From: Trueperaceae bacterium
GTDB lineage: Bacteria > Deinococcota > Deinococci > Deinococcales > Trueperaceae
NCBI GenBank assembly: GCA_020354625.1
Contig: CP070651.1
Location: 3,460,296-3,513,933, forward strand
Reading direction: 5' to 3'
Length of the DNA stretch: 53,638 bases
A model generated the notes under the pieces. The model worked only from the letters and a program-made list of their open reading frames with translations. It searched no databases and was not told where the DNA came from. Positions 4,119 to 33,926 of this stretch are shown in pieces. Numbering within the stretch: the first letter of the stretch is position 1; each line of letters opens with the position of its first letter. The position numbers were made by a program, and so were the translations under genes.

Positions 4119-5309
4119 ATGCCTGGTTTTTTACGTTCGATTTCAACCGTTCTGATCTATATCGTTTTTCTTCTGGGGGCAAGTTTGGTCTTCACCTCGG
4201 TCGCTCAAGAAGATGTGGCCCCCGAAGAGGATCTGGTGCTCGTTCAAATAGGTGAAATGGTAGAGACCCTCGCCAGTTTCAACCAGCGTTTCGAGATTAC
4301 CATTCGCAGCTTGGCTGCGAATCAAGGGGTGGTGCTCACCGACGATTTGCGTACCCGCCTCGCCACCTTCAAGCCGCAGTTTCTGGAACAGCGTATCACC
4401 GAGATGGTCTTGCTCCAAGAGGCTGAACTGCGTGGCATCGGGATTTCGGATGAGGAACTCGATGCCCGGATCGGGCGTATCCAGGCGAGTGTTCAGCCGG
4501 GACAGACCTATGAGCAGCTATTGGCGGACGCCGGGTTTAGCGGAGAAGAACACCTTCGCCAGCTCTTGATGGAGAACGAACTCGTTCAGCGGGTGGTGGT
4601 CGTCTTGCAAGACGGTATCGATATCACCGACGACCAGCTACAAGAGGCTTATGAAGCCAACCTCGACCAGTTCACCACCCCCGAGCAGGTATGCGCCCGC
4701 CACATCCTTCTTGAGACCGAGGAGGATGCCAACGGCGTGCTAGAGGATCTCGAGATGGGCGGAGATTTCGCTGAGCTGGCCCAAGAGCGCAGTACCGGGC
4801 CCAGCGGGCCCAGCGGTGGCGAACTCGGATGTTTCAGTCGGGGCCGGATGGTTCCACCGTTTGAAGAAGCGTCCTTCGCTGCCGAAGTGGACTCACCCGT
4901 GGGCCCCGTCGAAACGCAGTTCGGCTTCCACGTGATTCTGGTCTACGAGAGACAGGAGCCCGGTACAAGATCGATCGAAGAGGTGAGAGTCCAGCTCGAG
5001 CAGCAGCTCAGAGGTGAACGCCTTCCTGAGGTGATCAGTGCCTTGGAATCGGCGTCTGGCGTCGAGAGTTTTCCCGAGCTGCTCACGCCCCCAGCTCCAC
5101 CAGAAGAGGCTGCTGATGAGGGCAGTGACGCTACCGACGACGCGACCGGTGATGAGACCGGTAGTGAGACCGCTAGTGAGAGCAGTGATGAGGCTGGCGG
5201 TGAGGGCAGCAGTGAGACCGACACCGGTGCTGAGGGCAGCGGTGAGACCGGTGATGAAGGTGGTGATGAGACTGGTGATGAGACCAGTGACAGCGACGAC
5301 GAGATGTAG
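4119..5309 (+). CDS. Exported parvulin-type peptidyl-prolyl isomerase (SurA/PrsA-like)
   Basis: Likely an extracytoplasmic folding factor that isomerises X-Pro bonds. An N-terminal hydrophobic segment (about 7-27) is a signal peptide or anchor; there is no lipobox cysteine. A SurA N-domain-like helical region spans about 35-185. One parvulin domain follows (about 190-290) with the motifs ARHILL, GGELGCFSRGRMVPPFEEA and TQFGFHVI. The C-terminus (about 320-396) is a low-complexity tail of Asp/Glu/Ser/Thr/Gly with tandem GDETG-like repeats. I chose ATG 4119 over an in-frame GTG at 4080, because the GTG abuts its only Shine-Dalgarno-like bases. TAGGGT lies 5 bp before the ATG, so a leaderless mRNA is possible. 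A GGGTGATG-type repeat begins directly at the stop codon. Confidence 0.88.
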   Translation: MPGFLRSISTVLIYIVFLLGASLVFTSVAQEDVAPEEDLVLVQIGEMVETLASFNQRFEITIRSLAANQGVVLTDDLRTRLATFKPQFLEQRITEMVLLQEAELRGIGISDEELDARIGRIQASVQPGQTYEQLLADAGFSGEEHLRQLLMENELVQRVVVVLQDGIDITDDQLQEAYEANLDQFTTPEQVCARHILLETEEDANGVLEDLEMGGDFAELAQERSTGPSGPSGGELGCFSRGRMVPPFEEASFAAEVDSPVGPVETQFGFHVILVYERQEPGTRSIEEVRVQLEQQLRGERLPEVISALESASGVESFPELLTPPAPPEEAADEGSDATDDATGDETGSETASESSDEAGGEGSSETDTGAEGSGETGDEGGDETGDETSDSDDEM

Positions 5310-5439
5310 TGATGAGTAAGAGAGTTACAAGAGGGTAATGGGTCATGGGGAATGGGTAATGCGTGGGCGGTTTGCGAAAGATAGTTTGAACCCGGACCCT
5401 TCGAAGCACCCATTACCCATCACTCATCACCCATTACTC
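5308..5439. repeat. Dispersed repeat family A, copy 1
   Basis: The left arm (5308-5364) carries the words GTGATGAGTAAG, GGGTAATGGGTCATGGGG and AATGGGTAATG. The right arm (5406-5439) is their approximate reverse complement, CACCCATTACCCATCACTC and so on. A core of about 40 bp lies between, ending in TTCGAAGCACCC. The element overlaps the stop codon of the parvulin gene and would form a long imperfect hairpin. Relatives are at 23028, 23941, 33787 and 50331. Confidence 0.75.
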
Positions 5440-13691: not shown

Positions 13692-14171
13692 CTTACCCGC
13701 TTGTTGTACTCCACCCGTCACCCATGACCTGTTCGGAACGCTCTTTTCACGAAGCTCGCTTGCGCTTCTTGGCCAGGCGCTGCCCACGGTACTCGACCGG
13801 GGTCTAAACCGGCTTTCAGTGCACTTGTCACGCAAACTGAATGCATTTTCTTTTACTCGCTCTACTCGGGTGATCTTGGCACTGCCAAGATCACCGAAAG
13901 GCGGTTTAGGCAGCAGTGTTCCACGTGACGCGCTCGCCAAGGTGGAGTGTTTCGACCCGATCACGCCGAGTAGCAGCTTGTGGGAAGACAGGCTTTTACA
14001 CATTCAGATGGCATTACGCTATGCCAGTAAAATACACAAAAAACGCGTCCAGGACTAGGTATTCTATTTAGCAGAGTGTGAAGTTTTCCACATCTACAAT
14101 GGTTGCTACGTTGAGGTTCAATAAACGGCCACATTGCCCCGATGAGGCCCGGCACCAGAGAGGAGCAGCTG
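13692..14171. other. Intergenic region after addA
   Basis: These 480 bp hold no gene I can support. They contain a short fragment resembling the arms of repeat family A (ACCCGTCACCCATGACC, about 13713-13730), one complete copy of repeat family B (13805-13908), and an AT-richer stretch (about 13990-14100) before the small gene at 14172. A TTTTCCACA word near 14083 resembles a DnaA box but is alone. Confidence 0.5.
13805..13908 (+). repeat. Dispersed repeat family B, copy 1 (~104 bp, with terminal inverted repeats)
   Basis: The ends are TAAACCGGCTTTC (13805-13817) and GAAAGGCGGTTTA (13896-13908), inverted repeats matching at 12 of 13 positions. Inside is a perfect hairpin, GGTGATCTTGGC-ACT-GCCAAGATCACC (13869-13895). 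Two more copies occur at 17622 and 23144. The size, end structure and lack of coding capacity resemble a MITE or other non-autonomous element. No target-site duplication is evident. Confidence 0.75.
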
Positions 14172-17054: not shown

Positions 17055-17405
17055 TCAGCGGTTCGTGACCACGTCGATTGCAAAGCCTGCGTCTACCAGT
17101 TGTATGGATTCGGGACCGAGCTGCTCCAGAGCGATCTGCAACTGGGCTTGGCTGGCCTGGCAGAAGTAGCCGCAGGGATCGGAGACGGGTTGCTGGGCGA
17201 GGGCGATGTGCGCTTGGGTAGGGCCGGTTTCGCAGAAGTAACCGCAGAGGTCTTGCTGGGCGATGGCGAGCTGGTGTTGGACCTGGCTGGCCTGGCAGAA
17301 GTAGCCGCAGGGGTCAGAGGAATCTACAGGGTCGTCTGCCAAGGCGACTGCGCCTGCTACCAAGATAAAGAGTGCCATCAGAAGTGCTGCGAGCCGGTTC
17401 GTCAT
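17055..17405 (-). CDS. Small exported protein with three CGYFC repeats
   Basis: I know no family for this 116-residue protein. The N-terminus (MTNRLAALLMALFILVAG then AVALADD) is a clear Sec signal peptide with an ALA-type cleavage site. The mature part has three tandem units of 21-24 residues, each Asp-(Pro/Leu)-CGYFC followed by a Gln/Ala-rich amphipathic stretch ending near IALxQQ. Six cysteines, all in CxxxC pairs, suggest disulfides or metal/heme binding outside the membrane. ATG 17405 has AAAGGAA upstream; an in-frame ATG at 17474 has a stronger GAGGAGG site but would place 23 residues before the signal peptide. The gene is divergent from the STAND gene at 17744. Confidence 0.75.
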   Translation of the reverse strand: MTNRLAALLMALFILVAGAVALADDPVDSSDPCGYFCQASQVQHQLAIAQQDLCGYFCETGPTQAHIALAQQPVSDPCGYFCQASQAQLQIALEQLGPESIQLVDAGFAIDVVTNR

Positions 17406-17530: not shown

Positions 17531-17616
17531 GCAGAACCGGACCTTTCCGAGCCATCACCCCGGCTTTTCCAGCGCTTTACCGGAGCCTTACCGGGGCTTT
17601 ACCGAGCAATTACCTA
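17531..17616. promoter_or_regulatory. Array of 11-bp phased direct repeats
   Basis: Between the divergent genes there is a run of units with consensus GCTTTACCGG. They start at 17541 (ACCTTTCCGA), 17552 (weak), 17563 (GCTTTTCCAG), 17574 (GCTTTACCGG), 17585 (GCCTTACCGG), 17596 (GCTTTACCGA) and 17607 (CAATTACCTA), each exactly 11 bp apart. One further unit, GCAGAACCGG, starts 10 bp before the first. A spacing of one DNA turn is what a multimeric activator needs, and SARP-type activators are known to bind direct repeats with 11-bp spacing. The adjacent gene encodes a SARP-like N-terminus, so autoregulation is a reasonable inference. Confidence 0.6.
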
Positions 17617-17621
17617 TCGTT

Positions 17622-17724
17622 AAAACCGGCTTTCTGTGCACTTGTCGTGCTGACTGAACACCTCGGCTTAACCTCGCTCTACTCGGGTGATCCTGGCACC
17701 GCCAAGATCACCGAAAGGCGTTTT
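17622..17724 (+). repeat. Dispersed repeat family B, copy 2
   Basis: It begins AAAACCGGCTTTC and ends GAAAGGCGTTTT, and contains the hairpin GGTGATCCTGGC-ACC-GCCAAGATCACC (one mismatch). It aligns over its whole length with the copy at 13805, including CTCGCTCTACTCGGGTGATC. It ends 19 bp before the STAND start codon, so it may contribute to that gene's promoter. Confidence 0.75.
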
Positions 17725-17732
17725 GGGAGGTC

Positions 17733-17738
17733 TATAAT
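17733..17738 (+). promoter_or_regulatory. Perfect -10 element 5 bp before the STAND start codon
   Basis: TATAAT at 17733-17738 is followed by five bases and then ATG at 17744. Transcription from this element would start at or next to the A of the ATG, giving a leaderless mRNA, an arrangement reported as common in Deinococcus. The base stretch 17 bp upstream (ACCGAA, in the end of repeat B copy 2) is not a -35, so an activator would be needed. That fits the phased repeat array upstream. Confidence 0.5.
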
Positions 17739-17743
17739 GCACT

Positions 17744-20700
17744 ATGCGCCTCGTCACCCTGGGTGGGCTCGAGCTCGCGGGTTCGGACTTCCAACGGCCG
17801 AAGCCGCTGTTGCTGCTGGCCTATCTCATCTTGGAGGGATCCCAGGACCGGAGACATCTGGCCGAGCTCTTCTGGCCGGGTGCCGAGAACGCCTTGGGCA
17901 GCCTGGCCACCACCCTGACCCGTTTGCGGCAGGGTACGGACGGCAAGGTGATGGCAGATGAAAACCGGGCCTGGGCCGAGGTGCCGTGTGACGCCCTTGA
18001 ACTCCTCAGATTGCTGGAGGAGGGGCGGTTGGAAAAAGGGGTCGGTCTCTACTCGGGACGGTTCTTGGACGGATTTCACCTCAGGGATTTGGGGATAGAG
18101 CTCGAGGAGTGGATCTACCGGCGGCGCGAACAGCTGGCTGCGAGGGTAAGGGGAGCGCTATTGAGCCTGGGGGAAGAGGCGGCTGCCGAGGGGGATTTCA
18201 CGGCCGCTGCCAAACAGGCTGAAGCCGCCTACTTGCTGCCAGGAGCGCCGGAACCCGAGGCTGAGGACTTCGTCCGCCTGTTTCGTCTGCTTCGGGCCGG
18301 AGACAACCCCCACGCTGCCGAGGTAAAAAAGGAAGCCGAGTCTTTCGGGCTCGCACTCTCCCTGGAGCGTGACGCTTCGAGGGCGGAGCTGTCAGGAACG
18401 AGAGGTGAACGGCAGCTTCCAGAAAGGGATCCCTACAAAGGGCTGGCTTCCTTTCAAGAGGAAGACGCCGGGCTGTTCTTCGGTCGCGAAGCCGTGACCG
18501 CTGATCTCGTGCAGACGGTAAAGCGCCGGCCGGGTACGGTCGTAGTGGGCGTCAGCGGCAGTGGTAAGTCGTCGCTGGTGTTCGCCGGATTGGTGCCCGC
18601 CCTGCGAGCCGAAGAGACCTGGCTCATCGCCGACCTGCGCCCCGGCCGCGAGCCGTTCCGCGCGCTCGCCTCGGCCCTCATTACGGTGTTGGAACCCGCG
18701 CTCAGCAAGACCGATCAACTCACCGAGAGTCGGAAGTTGACCGAACGATTGCGCGAGGGCTCGCTGAGCCTGGCCGACGTCATCGGGCGGATCGTGCAAG
18801 AGCATCCCGCTCGGCGCTTCCTCCTCATCATCGATCAGCTCGAGGAGCTCTACAGCCTAGGCCGGCTCGAGACCGGCAGCGTGACGCCGGAGGCCGTGCT
18901 GGATCAACTCGTCGGCGTGCTGCGTTCGCTGGACGAAGCCGTTCACTTGGTGCTGACGGTGCGAGCCGACTTTCTGGCCTCGTTGCTGGCCTATGGGCCG
19001 ATGGTCGATGTGTTGCGCCAGAGCCAGTTCCTGCTCGGTTCTATGTCGGGTGGGGAGCTTCGCGACGCGATCGAGAAGCCCGCAGCTCTCTACGGGGTTA
19101 CTTTCGAGGACGGACTGTCCGACCGTATCCTCAGCGAGGTGGAGAGCCGGGAGGTTAGCCTGCCGCTCCTGGAGTTCACTCTCAGCCAGCTCTGGGAGCA
19201 GCGGCAGGGGAGAATGCTCACTCATCAGGCGTATGAAGCCCTTGGCGGAGTCGAACAGGCGCTGGCCAACCACGCGGAGAAGACCCTGTTGGGGTTGAGT
19301 GAGGCGGACCGGGTGGCAGCCCAGAAAGTATTTTTGCAGCTGGTGCAGCCCGGTGAAGGCCAGGAGGACAGCCGCAGAGTGACCACTCGCGGTGAGGTGG
19401 GAGAGCGTCACTGGCAGTTGGTGAGCTACCTGGCGGGCGCGCGTCTGGTGGTGACAGGACGAGATGAGGATGGCGAGCAGGTCGCTGAAGTGATCCACGA
19501 GGCCCTCATCCGCCGCTGGCATACCTTGCGCGGTTGGTTGGACGAGCACCGGGCCTTCCGCATCTGGCAAGAACGGTTGCGTCAAGAGGTCAAGCTGTGG
19601 CAGGCGAGCGCCAAGGATGAGGGGGCGCTCCTGCACGGTTTCCATTTGGAGGAGGCCAGGCAGAACCTGGAGGAGTACCGGGAGCAGTTGGGCTCAGATG
19701 AACTCGACTTCATCGATTCCAGCCTGGCGCTGGAAGAACGACGCCACGCCGAGGAGCGCCAGCGCCAAGAGGAGCGGGAGCAGGCTCGCCATGAGCAGGA
19801 CCGCCTTCAACGGCTCAACCTCCAGCGGTTGAGAGGCTTCCTGGCCGTGATGGTGGTGCTCAGTTTTCTGGCCGGTTGGCAGTGGTGGGTGGCCGGTAGG
19901 GAGAGGGACCGTGCCTTTAAGGCCGAAGCCGATGCGCTGGCAGCCCAGGAGCTTGCCGAGGTGCAACGCGATCTGGCGACCCAGCAAGGAGAGCTGGCCC
20001 TGATGCGGCAGCTCGGTGCCGAAGCTCTGGTGGCGACACAGCTGCCCGGGCCGAACACCGGTTACTTCGACCGGGCGGTGTTGCTCGCTGCCCACGCCGT
20101 ACGGTTGAGAGAAACCACCGAGAGCACCGGTAATCTGCTGAGGGTATTGCAAAATAAGCCGCCGGTGAGGGTTCTGCACGGTCACGGTAACAGCGTGGAA
20201 GATCTTGTGTTTAGCTCCGACGGCAGGAGACTGGTGAGTGGTGGTCGAGATCGCACGATCAGGGTGTGGGACGTTGCCAGCGGCACGTTGCTCGACGCTT
20301 CGTTGGAACTGGAAGAGATCGTGTATGACTTTGCCATTAGTCCAGATGATCGGTTTTTGGCCTTCGCTACTGTCGATAGCCACGTCTTGCTGTGGAACCT
20401 GGCTGATGGAAAGGTTGTTAGGAGAGTACGTTTTGGAGCAGACTTCTATAACTTTGATGAGCTTTATCGCTCGCGGAGTCGCAGCATCGCCTTTCATCCC
20501 GACGGTAGCATCCTGGCCATTAGGTCCACGAGCTCGACGATCGTCCTATTGGATGTAGACTCCGGCGAGGTGATCGGTGAGATCTCGGGAGGACACGATG
20601 GCGTGATCATCGATATGGCCTTCAGCCCCGACGGTCACCTCCTGGCGAGCGGAGGGGCAGATGGGAGAGTCCTGCTTTGGGACGTCGATGCCCAGAAGTT

Positions 20701-22093
20701 GGTAGCTGAACTCCCTGACAACCACCGGGCTTCTGTGCTGAGCATCGCCTTCAGCCCCGACGGCCGGCTGTTGGCGACGGGTAGCTGGGACCAGACCGTC
20801 CGCCTCTGGGATGTAGCGAACCTGAAGCCCTTGGGCGAGCCGCTAGTAGGCCATCGTGCCAGGGTGTGGGGTGTGGTGTTCAGCCCCGACAGTCGCTTCG
20901 TGGCCAGTGGAGGAGATGCCGGTTCCACACTATTGTGGGATGTAGCTGGCCAGAAATTGTTGAACAGGATCGGCAAAATCGATCTTCCCATTTATACCGT
21001 AGCTTTTAGTCCGGACGGACGCACCGTCGCGACGGCAGGTCAAGGTTCGGAGATCGGGTTGTGGGACGTCGAAACGCTTTTGAACGAGACACTTACTGGT
21101 CACGGGAACTGGGTCTGGTCGGTCGCATACAGCCCCGATGGACGTGTCCTAGCCAGCGCTGGAGAGGACGGTACCGTCTTTTTATGGGATGCCTCAAGCG
21201 GCGCGCTGCTCGGCCGGCTGGTTCAAGGAAGGAGCCGAGCGCCGCTGAGCCTCGCCTTCAGCCCCGACGGCGAGGTGTTGGCGGTGGGGAGGCGTGACGA
21301 CAGCATCGCACTCTGGGATGTAACCAGGCGTGAGCCCGTGGGAGAACCGCTGACGGGCCATGAACGCGATGTCCTGAGCGTTGCCTTCAGCCGTGACGGC
21401 CAGGTGCTGGCGAGCGGCAGTGCCGACGGCACGATCAGGCTTTGGGATGTTCACAATGGGAGTCTGCTTGGAGAGCCGCTCCAAAGCGGCGACCAGGTGA
21501 GGAGCGTCGCCTTCCGTCCTGACGGTGCGGTGCTCGCTGCCGGTGACGGTCGAGGGGCGATCAGCTTGTGGGATGTGGCCGGGCGGATACCCCTGGGCGA
21601 ACCGCTTCAGGCGCACGATGCACCGGTGGGGAGCGTCGCCTTCAGTCCCGACGGTACCGTGCTGGCCAGCGGCGGTTGGGATCAGACTGTGAGGTTGTGG
21701 GATCTGGCGAGCCGGGTACCCCTCGGAGAGCCGTTGCAAGGACATACCGGCAGGGTGTGGAGCGTGGCCTTCGATCCCGTGGGCAGGTATCTGGCCAGCG
21801 CCGGTGACGACAACACTGCGATCCTCTGGGATGTCGTCAGCAGAGCCCCGATGGGAGATCCGTTCAAAGGACATGATGACTGGGTGTTGAGTGCCGCTTT
21901 CAGCCCCGATGGGAACACGCTGGCCACTTCGAGCCGCGATCGTTCGGTGAGGCTCTGGGATGTAAACCCTCAGTCTTGGCTCGAGAAAGCCTGCAGCTAT
22001 GCAGGCCGTAACCTGACCCAAGAGGAGTGGCAGCGTTACCTGGGAGAGAGACCTTACCGGCGTACCTGTCCAGATTATCCGGACGGACCTTGA
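17744..22093 (+). CDS. SARP-like / STAND NTPase / TM / 14-blade WD40 regulator
   Basis: A 1449-residue multidomain signalling protein. Residues 1-215 resemble SARP/BTAD activators: a winged-helix part (LLLLAYLILEG, RRHLAELFWPGAENA, LATTLTRLRQG) followed by an all-helical domain. An nSTAND1-type NTPase follows (about 225-640) with PYKGLASFQEEDAGLFFGR, Walker A GVSGSGKSS (about 270) and Walker B LLIIDQLEEL (about 360). A charged coiled-coil leads to one membrane helix (about 698-718). Residues 808-1410 are fourteen WD40 repeats, enough for two seven-bladed propellers. The tail has the motif AGRNLTQEEWQRYLGE usual behind such repeats. The expected model is ligand binding by WD40, NTP-driven oligomerisation and gene activation; some STAND proteins are antiphage sensors. 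The ATG follows TATAAT closely. Confidence 0.88.
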   Translation: MRLVTLGGLELAGSDFQRPKPLLLLAYLILEGSQDRRHLAELFWPGAENALGSLATTLTRLRQGTDGKVMADENRAWAEVPCDALELLRLLEEGRLEKGVGLYSGRFLDGFHLRDLGIELEEWIYRRREQLAARVRGALLSLGEEAAAEGDFTAAAKQAEAAYLLPGAPEPEAEDFVRLFRLLRAGDNPHAAEVKKEAESFGLALSLERDASRAELSGTRGERQLPERDPYKGLASFQEEDAGLFFGREAVTADLVQTVKRRPGTVVVGVSGSGKSSLVFAGLVPALRAEETWLIADLRPGREPFRALASALITVLEPALSKTDQLTESRKLTERLREGSLSLADVIGRIVQEHPARRFLLIIDQLEELYSLGRLETGSVTPEAVLDQLVGVLRSLDEAVHLVLTVRADFLASLLAYGPMVDVLRQSQFLLGSMSGGELRDAIEKPAALYGVTFEDGLSDRILSEVESREVSLPLLEFTLSQLWEQRQGRMLTHQAYEALGGVEQALANHAEKTLLGLSEADRVAAQKVFLQLVQPGEGQEDSRRVTTRGEVGERHWQLVSYLAGARLVVTGRDEDGEQVAEVIHEALIRRWHTLRGWLDEHRAFRIWQERLRQEVKLWQASAKDEGALLHGFHLEEARQNLEEYREQLGSDELDFIDSSLALEERRHAEERQRQEEREQARHEQDRLQRLNLQRLRGFLAVMVVLSFLAGWQWWVAGRERDRAFKAEADALAAQELAEVQRDLATQQGELALMRQLGAEALVATQLPGPNTGYFDRAVLLAAHAVRLRETTESTGNLLRVLQNKPPVRVLHGHGNSVEDLVFSSDGRRLVSGGRDRTIRVWDVASGTLLDASLELEEIVYDFAISPDDRFLAFATVDSHVLLWNLADGKVVRRVRFGADFYNFDELYRSRSRSIAFHPDGSILAIRSTSSTIVLLDVDSGEVIGEISGGHDGVIIDMAFSPDGHLLASGGADGRVLLWDVDAQKLVAELPDNHRASVLSIAFSPDGRLLATGSWDQTVRLWDVANLKPLGEPLVGHRARVWGVVFSPDSRFVASGGDAGSTLLWDVAGQKLLNRIGKIDLPIYTVAFSPDGRTVATAGQGSEIGLWDVETLLNETLTGHGNWVWSVAYSPDGRVLASAGEDGTVFLWDASSGALLGRLVQGRSRAPLSLAFSPDGEVLAVGRRDDSIALWDVTRREPVGEPLTGHERDVLSVAFSRDGQVLASGSADGTIRLWDVHNGSLLGEPLQSGDQVRSVAFRPDGAVLAAGDGRGAISLWDVAGRIPLGEPLQAHDAPVGSVAFSPDGTVLASGGWDQTVRLWDLASRVPLGEPLQGHTGRVWSVAFDPVGRYLASAGDDNTAILWDVVSRAPMGDPFKGHDDWVLSAAFSPDGNTLATSSRDRSVRLWDVNPQSWLEKACSYAGRNLTQEEWQRYLGERPYRRTCPDYPDGP

Positions 22094-23143: not shown

Positions 23144-23248
23144 TAATCTGTCTTGTCGGTAATCTTGGCAGCGCCGAGATTACCCGAATAGAGTGAGATA
23201 AGGCAGAGACCTTCAGTCACCGCGACGACTGTACTGAAAGCCGGTCTA
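23144..23248 (-). repeat. Dispersed repeat family B, copy 3 (reversed)
   Basis: The reverse complement of the copies at 13805 and 17622. The hairpin is GGTAATCTTGGC-AGC-GCCGAGATTACC. Compared with copy 1, the fourth base pair of the stem has changed on both sides (G-C to A-T), so pairing is kept; one G-T wobble remains. This end (GAAAGCCGGTCTA) stops 18 bp before the start codon of the HAD gene, as copy 2 stops 19 bp before the STAND gene. Confidence 0.7.
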
Positions 23249-23266: not shown

Positions 23267-23950
23267 ATGACCGGTATCGGAAAAGACCACCACGCCGTCA
23301 TCTTCGATTTCGACGGGCTCATGCTCGACACGGAGCCCGTGTACAAGCTGGCTTGGCAACACGCTTGCTCAGAGCAGGGGTATCTCCTCAGCGATGAACG
23401 CTACGCCCCGCTGATCGGCGTCCCTACGGCCGATGCCGAGGTGGAGCTGGCTCGCGAGTTCGGAGCCGGCTTTTCGGTGGAACGGTTTGCGGAAAAGTGG
23501 CCGGTCTTGTGGCGTGAGCACATCGCCGAAAAGGGCCTTGAACGGAAACCCGGGCTCGGGGAGGTGCTGGACCTGCTCGCTGCGAGCGCAATTCCCTGGG
23601 GCATCGCTACCTCCAGCGTTCGCGAGGACGTCTCCTTCTGCCTCGAGGTCACCGGGCTCGCCGGCAAGGCTCAGGCGATCGTGACCGTGGATGAAGTTGC
23701 GCGCGGCAAGCCGGCACCGGATATCTACCTGGAAGCCGCTGAGCGCCTGGCCGTCGACCCGGTCGCCTGCGTTGCGCTCGAGGACTCGAACGCCGGCGCC
23801 CGGGCGGCGCTATCCGCCGGCATGACCACCATCGTCGTTCCCGACCTGGTTGCCCCCGAAGCGGAGGTGGCTGCTTCGGTCCATGCGGTGGTTCCCAGCT
23901 TGCACGAAGCTGAAAGCCTGTTGAAGAGGCTGCTACGTGGTAACGGGTGA
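23267..23950 (+). CDS. HAD-superfamily (subfamily IA) phosphatase / phosphomutase-like
   Basis: Cytoplasmic Mg-dependent phosphatase of the beta-phosphoglucomutase-like group; the substrate is unknown. Motif I is DFDGLMLDTEP (nucleophile D in FDFDG), motif II is IATSS, motif III is the Lys in RGKPAPDIY, and motif IV is ALEDSNAGARAA. The helical cap lies between motifs I and II. At 227 residues it is typical. The ATG has no Shine-Dalgarno site; an AT-rich GGTAAAAAT lies just upstream, immediately after the end of repeat B copy 3. The final codons and stop (RGNG-stop) are part of repeat family A. Confidence 0.9.
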   Translation: MTGIGKDHHAVIFDFDGLMLDTEPVYKLAWQHACSEQGYLLSDERYAPLIGVPTADAEVELAREFGAGFSVERFAEKWPVLWREHIAEKGLERKPGLGEVLDLLAASAIPWGIATSSVREDVSFCLEVTGLAGKAQAIVTVDEVARGKPAPDIYLEAAERLAVDPVACVALEDSNAGARAALSAGMTTIVVPDLVAPEAEVAASVHAVVPSLHEAESLLKRLLRGNG

Positions 23951-24126
23951 TGGGTGATGAGTGATGAGTAATGGGTGTTGCGAAATTCGTAGCTGAACCC
24001 GTCTACCCTGACGGTTGCGTCTTAGGAGAAAACGAGCTTTAGTCTAGTCATTCTTTTTGCATTGGCCCCACGCATTACCCATCACCCATTTCTCATTACC
24101 TGTTTCGTTGCTCTACTCATTACTGC

Positions 24127-24141
<15 letters not shown>
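23941..24141. repeat. Dispersed repeat family A, copy 3 (largest)
   Basis: The left part (TAACGGGTGATGGGTGATGAG, then TGATGAGTAATGGGTGTTGCGAA) includes the HAD stop codon. The right part (GCATTACCCATCACCCATTTC onward, then CTCATTACTGCTTACCCATCACCC) includes the glnS stop codon on the other strand. The 3' ends of two convergent genes are therefore both formed by this element. The inner edge GTTGCGAA is the inverse of the TTCGCAGCACCC edge in other copies. Confidence 0.7.
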
Positions 24142-26460
<2,319 letters not shown>

Positions 26461-33786: not shown

Positions 33787-33926
33787 GGGTGATGAGAAAT
33801 CAGTGATGAGTGATGAGTGGAGCAGGTAAGTGATGGGAAATGCATAGGACGACAGGTAAATGGATTGGTTCAGTCGCGAGGGTTTGCAGCACCCATGACT
33901 CATTACCCATTACCCATCACCTGCAA
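33787..33926. repeat. Dispersed repeat family A, copy 4
   Basis: The left arm (GGGTGATGAGAAATCAGTGA, then TGAGTGATGAGTGG and GTAAGTGATGGGAAATG) and the right arm (CACCCATGACTCATTACCC, then ATTACCCATCACCTGC) are inverted relative to each other. The core contains GGTTCAGTCGCGAGGGTTTGCAG. It lies 57 bp after the stop of the Cache-STAS gene, inside an otherwise empty 267-bp gap, and may separate the transcript of the RsbRST-X-kinase part from the response regulator part. Confidence 0.7.

Follow-up and report, generated by a model that had tools for sequence, protein, structure and literature searches.

A seven-unit, 11-bp repeat array as the predicted operator of a large SARP-type regulator in a Trueperaceae bacterium

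Among the systems closest to the locus described here, AfsR of Streptomyces coelicolor, known from its afs box, makes a base contact through R92 in the cryo-EM structure, and in SARP operators some 8 bp lie between the 3' repeat and the -10 element (PMC10936776). The operator of PimR, a SARP-LAL-type regulator, consists of three heptamers with 4-bp spacers; cooperative binding needs at least two repeats and the main operator does not overlap the -35 element (PMC5930380). DnrS of Thermus thermophilus, which combines a GAF domain with a C-terminal bacterial transcriptional activator domain (BTAD), is required for transcription activation in vivo (PMC5748679). The literature searched yielded no SARP operator and no SARP specificity rule outside Actinobacteria.

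The locus lies in a 53,638-nucleotide stretch of a Trueperaceae genome (hereafter the window). This stretch also encodes a glutaminyl-tRNA synthetase fused to a GatB/YqeY domain (24127–26460, minus strand), a fusion that is a Deinococcota trait. We consider that an 11-bp repeat array in the window is, as a whole, best explained as an operator private to the large SARP whose gene starts at 17744, and put the probability of this reading at roughly 0.75. Its computed components are the array, the SARP fold, the lag-11 arrays of the family, the residue–base covariation and a MITE-like insertion; binding, autoregulation, sensing and the current output are what we infer beyond these.

The array and its recurrence upstream of homologues

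The predicted operator array occupies positions 17541–17617 (plus strand), between divergent genes starting at 17405 (minus strand) and 17744 (plus strand). Its seven plus-strand units start at 17541 (ACCTTTCCGAG), 17552 (CCATCACCCCG), 17563 (GCTTTTCCAGC), 17574 (GCTTTACCGGA), 17585 (GCCTTACCGGG), 17596 (GCTTTACCGAG) and 17607 (CAATTACCTAT), and the core TYWCC is present in 7/7 units at steps of exactly 11 bp. Units 4–6 are nearly alike; the outer units are degenerate, matching at only 5–8 of 11 positions. The preliminary description had reported at least six phased units between two divergent genes. These are real and number seven, and the interval it gave was right except for one ACCGG at its start (17536–17540), which, like another ACCGG at 17625–17629, falls off the array register.

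The array has a lag-11 self-match score of 21, a value never attained when the upstream 350 bp were Markov-shuffled 5000 times, and the highest among 81 homologous upstream regions tested alike. Three copies of TTACCG at 11 bp have their sole exact genomic match within 17541–17617. Exact matches to four copies of TYWCC at 11 bp occur in the 4.29-Mb genome only at the array, in four overlapping frames (0 matches for the reversed pattern, used as control). No structured RNA was detected at the locus, with no Rfam match and a leader fold no better than shuffles (z −1.1).

When arrays were sought upstream of orthologues and elsewhere, lag-11 arrays were found to recur before paralogues and orthologues, each with its own unit, so that the claim of the preliminary description withstood the refutation that it had itself proposed. 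At lag 11, 27 of the 81 upstream regions scored 8 or more, compared with 1–12 regions for each other lag from 4 to 30; measured against Markov sequences, 28 regions were observed and 4.9 expected at this score. Among 141 distinct homologue regions, 30% scored 8 or more at lag 11 versus 10% of 195 control genes (P = 1.4e−5); the controls were other genes of the same sequences, and their value may be somewhat inflated since divergent genes share intergenic DNA. Lags 7–10, 12–15 and 22 showed no significant excess over control genes in the same 141 regions. A detectable array is absent upstream of about two thirds of homologues. Within the same genome the units differ between paralogues, namely CCCTAC (L060), GCTAAC (L068), GTTCACC (L059) and CTTTCC (L057). 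Thermaceae units include TGAAC in Thermus sp. 2.9 (L202), a TGAACG type in T. brockianus (L198) and TTAACG/TGAACG in Meiothermus hypogaeus (L191).

One additional array in the genome (L329, G000:C1:1528988–1529036) has TTTCC, TTACC, TTACC and TCACA units at 11 bp, together with TAAACT and a GTG start. It is divergent from an exported-protein gene, and downstream of it lies only a 23-codon ORF and no intact SARP gene; either the locus lacks the SARP gene that belongs to it, or the array is a trans target.

The encoded regulator and the covariation of residue 60 with one operator base

The gene at 17744–22093 (plus strand) encodes a large SARP of 1449 aa, composed of an ODB+BTAD-like domain (residues 1–230), nSTAND1 (230–626) and, in the C-terminal half, WD40 repeats. 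Its N-terminal domain had been described as SARP-like, and the fold comparison agreed. An AlphaFold model of the N-terminal 230 residues, built with 44 homologues (pLDDT 95, pTM 0.89), found in Foldseek searches of the PDB its best match in AfsR within the transcription initiation complex 8k60 (E 1e−5, probability 1.00), followed by EmbR. PDB sequence searches with this domain found no SARP; fold comparison alone did. Neither Pfam BTAD nor Trans_reg_C matched the large SARP, and no DNA-binding Pfam model matched its first 230 residues alone; Pfam BTAD matched 5 of 34 homologues, the window protein not being among them. A hydrophobic helix at residues 699–717, between STAND and WD40, is a probable transmembrane (TM) helix. 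Similar helices occur in two long paralogues, and, judged from hydropathy only, the large SARP and both paralogues may be membrane-tethered.

About a dozen SARP-type genes are present in the genome, with further homologues in Trueperaceae, Meiothermus, Calidithermus and Thermus; these were retrieved from genome contigs with an alignment query, a single-protein query having found nothing. Five other paralogues tested from this genome have the layout SARP–NB-ARC–TPR, and one more is SARP–nSTAND1–WD40. Two SARP N-terminal ORFs of 497 and 145 aa (L021 and L022) share the same match to query residues 1–73, and the 75 bp upstream of the match at 1501 are nearly identical in the two, which points to a recent duplication.

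The recognition helix was placed at residues 50–64 (codons at 17891–17935, plus strand) from the secondary structure of the model, the alignment with AfsR and the covariation described below. Residue 60 is Arg (codon 17921–17923, plus strand) and aligns with R92 of AfsR (AfsR sequence taken from the PDB). Circular shifting, blind to the proteins, served to align the arrays of 36 representatives (<80% identity) and gave a polar motif with the consensus C-Y-N-A-(C/A)-C-(G/A), which reads along the coding strand of the regulator in about 33/36 arrays. In an unsupervised mutual information (MI) scan of 990 protein-position/DNA-column pairs (90 residues × 11 columns), the top pair was residue 60 and column 8, just before the conserved C (z 7.9, MI 0.88); the runner-up (z 7.8) involved a nearly invariant protein position and carried less information (MI 0.42). 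Across representatives sharing <80% identity, R60 was paired with C in 15 cases and with A in none, and Q60 with A in 11 and with C in 3. The R–C/Q–A rule was therefore followed in 26/29 cases (Fisher test, P = 1e−5), and at least one of the three Q60 exceptions looks mis-called, L091 carrying CCTAACG/CCGAACG elsewhere.

The idea of A and C classes was first formed by eye, and an earlier test with this hand-made class likewise ranked residue 60 first. Because an in-phase trimer test could not assign several of the arrays to a class, the unsupervised rerun was performed, covering largely the same loci. When the helix was left out of the tree (83 columns, poorly resolved), the R/Q label changed 10 times compared with a mean of 9.9–10.0 for shuffled labels, so that, as far as this weak tree allows, clade membership does not explain the R/Q split; one independent R/Q switch falls on a well-supported branch. 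Thermaceae added late to the analysis comprised Q60 members with AAC, AAT or GAC units (L251, L252, L260 and L263) and, with AAC units, a group carrying Lys60, but no R-type array, so that they support the rule on the Q side alone. The residue–base covariation argues strongly, on computational grounds, that each regulator would read the array before its own gene.

The promoter, the divergent gene and a mobile element in between

The SARP gene has a leaderless-type -10, TATAAT at 17733–17738 (plus strand), with no -35 element and 5 bp before the ATG at 17744 (TATAAT-GCACT-ATG). The preliminary description had noted the missing -35 as frequent in activator-dependent promoters; it is no particular mark of these in Deinococcota, where such promoters are normal and a TANNNT -10 about 6–7 bp before the ORF gives leaderless mRNA for about 30% of genes (PMC12340547). 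The 5-bp spacing here matches this pattern, and paralogues in the same genome have a similar kind of promoter layout. A weak candidate -10 beside the array, TATCGT at 17615, fits TANNNT only and could be the source of a second, leadered transcript.

The divergent gene (17055–17405, minus strand; ATG at 17405, Shine–Dalgarno sequence AAGGA) encodes an exported protein of 116 aa with a signal peptide and three CGYFC motifs (repeat DPCGYFCQASQ); the protein could be a processed peptide. A start further out, extending the frame up to 17558, is less likely. The array may plausibly control this CGYFC gene. That the array should mainly serve this gene, with the regulator expressed constitutively from TATAAT, is rather improbable in our view. 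Exported-looking divergent neighbours are indeed enriched beside the regulators (37/73 versus 43/228 control ORFs, P = 2.6e−7), by a rough criterion under which several obvious lipoproteins, and the CGYFC case itself, go unrecognised, and this pairing gives joint control general, not CGYFC-specific, support. Furthermore, no more than about 35 bp separate the array of Thermus L202 from the divergent start, so that this array must overlap the divergent promoter. However, the polarity of the units along the regulator gene speaks against such a role, inspection of the sequence between the array and the CGYFC start found neither TANNNT nor a clear -10, and the CGYFC protein is an orphan, with no paralogue in the genome and only weak matches in relatives, none convincing. 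A recurrent 187-aa divergent neighbour, which is not exported, is found beside Q60-type SARPs (L083, L085, L091 and L159) and is possibly another regulated partner.

On the regulator side, the end of the array is separated from TATAAT by 115 bp, nearly all of which (about 102 bp) is a degenerate copy of a MITE-like element at 17622–17724 (plus strand; 87% over 17623–17724, inverted ends TAAACCGnCTTTC). The family occupies >30 genomic places as a 104-bp, non-coding unit with inverted ends TAAACCGnCTTTC / GAAAGnCGGTTTA that look TA-flanked, the window copy being degenerate. Further copies in the window lie at 13805–13908 (91%) and 23144–23248 (minus strand, 77%). A 27-bp palindrome internal to the element (17686–17712) was considered as a second operator near the -35 position and rejected, for it occurs at 33 places in the genome (≤3 mismatches), set in the 104-bp unit, and so belongs to the MITE. 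We take the family to resemble Tc1/IS630-like MITEs, which are about 100 bp long, dispersed and non-coding, with inverted ends next to TA. It differs from them in being confined to its own genome among the 41 searched, with no copy in the 40 relatives, and no parent transposase was identified. Degenerate 7-bp repeats (GGGTGAT / CACCCAT, TCATCACCCAT-like) were also observed in the window at 5144–5439, 23940–23977 and 33789–33921, and stretches similar to them adjoin several MITE copies (L299, L303 and L307).

With the MITE placing the array 115 bp away, the SARP activation geometry is not found at TATAAT; some relatives, such as Thermus L202 and L252, do have the spacing of about 8 bp between 3' repeat and -10. 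In silico removal of the element brings the last unit to 13 bp from TATAAT, versus 12 bp in the Meiothermus-type loci L230, L234 and L236. Likewise, over 36 arrays the median distance between array end and start codon is about 51 bp; the window value of 129 bp is among the four largest and would be about 27 bp without the MITE. The MITE-free position, 13 bp from the -10, would be normal for the family.

The array might instead be a relic, a former autoregulatory operator cut off by the MITE and now controlling nothing. We judge this unlikely. The separation of about 102 bp compared with the SARP norm of about 8 bp (PMC10936776) would fit it, and the L329 array, with its -10 and no intact SARP gene, suggests that such loci decay. 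Against this, the insertion looks old because the copy has diverged (87%), but of all arrays examined this one shows the greatest regularity.

Far less probable is a PHO-box-like site for another regulator of the OmpR/PhoB type, one that is not the product of the adjacent gene. OmpR-family response regulators do use 11-bp direct repeats, and some units (GTTCACC, L059) resemble Streptomyces PHO boxes. A shared regulator, however, predicts a single unit type, whereas the units differ between paralogues of one genome and covary with residue 60 of the neighbouring protein. A functionless chance or slippage-born tandem repeat can be dismissed almost entirely, for although TRF found 2.5 copies only and the outer units are degenerate, the shuffles, the lag specificity, the control genes of the homologue comparison and the covariation all speak against it.

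Proposed mechanism and comparison with known systems

In this operator role, the array would be bound head to tail by winged-helix protomers of the large SARP's N-terminal domain, one per 11-bp unit and on one helix face. Binding would be cooperative, and Arg60 of the recognition helix, the counterpart of AfsR R92, would specify the first C in TYW-C-C. Signal sensing may fall to the nSTAND1 ATPase and the WD40 repeats, which are probably parted by the membrane helix, and this input would drive the oligomerisation needed for filling seven sites. Ancestrally, the gene would have been autoregulated from a leaderless promoter directly 3' of the array, with sigma adaptation as in AfsR. The later MITE insertion would have left the array about 100 bp too far away for direct SARP–sigma contact at TATAAT, and its action today may be directed at the divergent gene for the exported protein, or be a distant or a weak one. 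An autoregulated switch, as proposed in the preliminary description, appears well supported as an ancestral design; its present output may differ, given the MITE and the 115-bp separation.

A broader and tentative conjecture is that Deinococcota possess orthogonal SARP switches, each with a private array in which one base is set by one residue (Arg for C, Gln or Lys for A), and each divergently paired with an exported protein; for membrane-tethered WD40 members, the window protein among them, this protein would be a partner of the regulator or make up a ligand–receptor pair with it. A one-residue, one-base rule together with natural orthogonal pairs in one genome makes STAND-type regulators testable outside Streptomyces, and mutually independent switches for Thermus and Deinococcus could be built from such pairs. 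The distance over which a SARP can act is also probed by a natural experiment, the MITE lying between operator and promoter.

Among known systems, EmbR of Mycobacterium tuberculosis is similar to the window protein in the fold of the SARP domain, and carries an FHA domain instead of STAND/WD40. DnrS is likewise a BTAD regulator, from the same phylum, and differs in its GAF domain, the C-terminal position of its BTAD and the lack of any described array (PMC5748679). PimR-type SARP-LAL regulators share an intergenic operator beside the regulator gene and the 11-bp period (PMC5930380); PimR differs in controlling the neighbouring pimM, in its unit (CGGCAAG), in its Streptomyces host and in its C-terminal half.

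The likeness to AfsR (PMC10936776) comprises the ODB+BTAD fold followed by a STAND ATPase, direct repeats of 11 bp, a promoter without a good -35 and Arg at the R92 position, and the five SARP–NB-ARC–TPR paralogues share the AfsR architecture itself. In contrast to AfsR, with two units, the window has seven, 115 bp from the -10 owing to the MITE; its protein is nSTAND1–TM–WD40 rather than NB-ARC–TPR; its promoter is leaderless and belongs to Deinococcota; and its array precedes the regulator's own gene, whereas that of AfsR precedes afsS. The new aspects are the array length, the private units of each paralogue, the residue–base rule and the WD40/TM form. The features of a large SARP are present, namely the SARP fold, a STAND/NOD ATPase with a repeat sensor, direct repeats of the 11- or 22-bp kind and a recognition-helix residue (60) that covaries with one operator column. 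Because the promoter spacing departs from that of the described systems, a departure for which the MITE offers an explanation, we describe the locus as a variant that probably functions in the manner of large-SARP switches, and not as one of their typical members.
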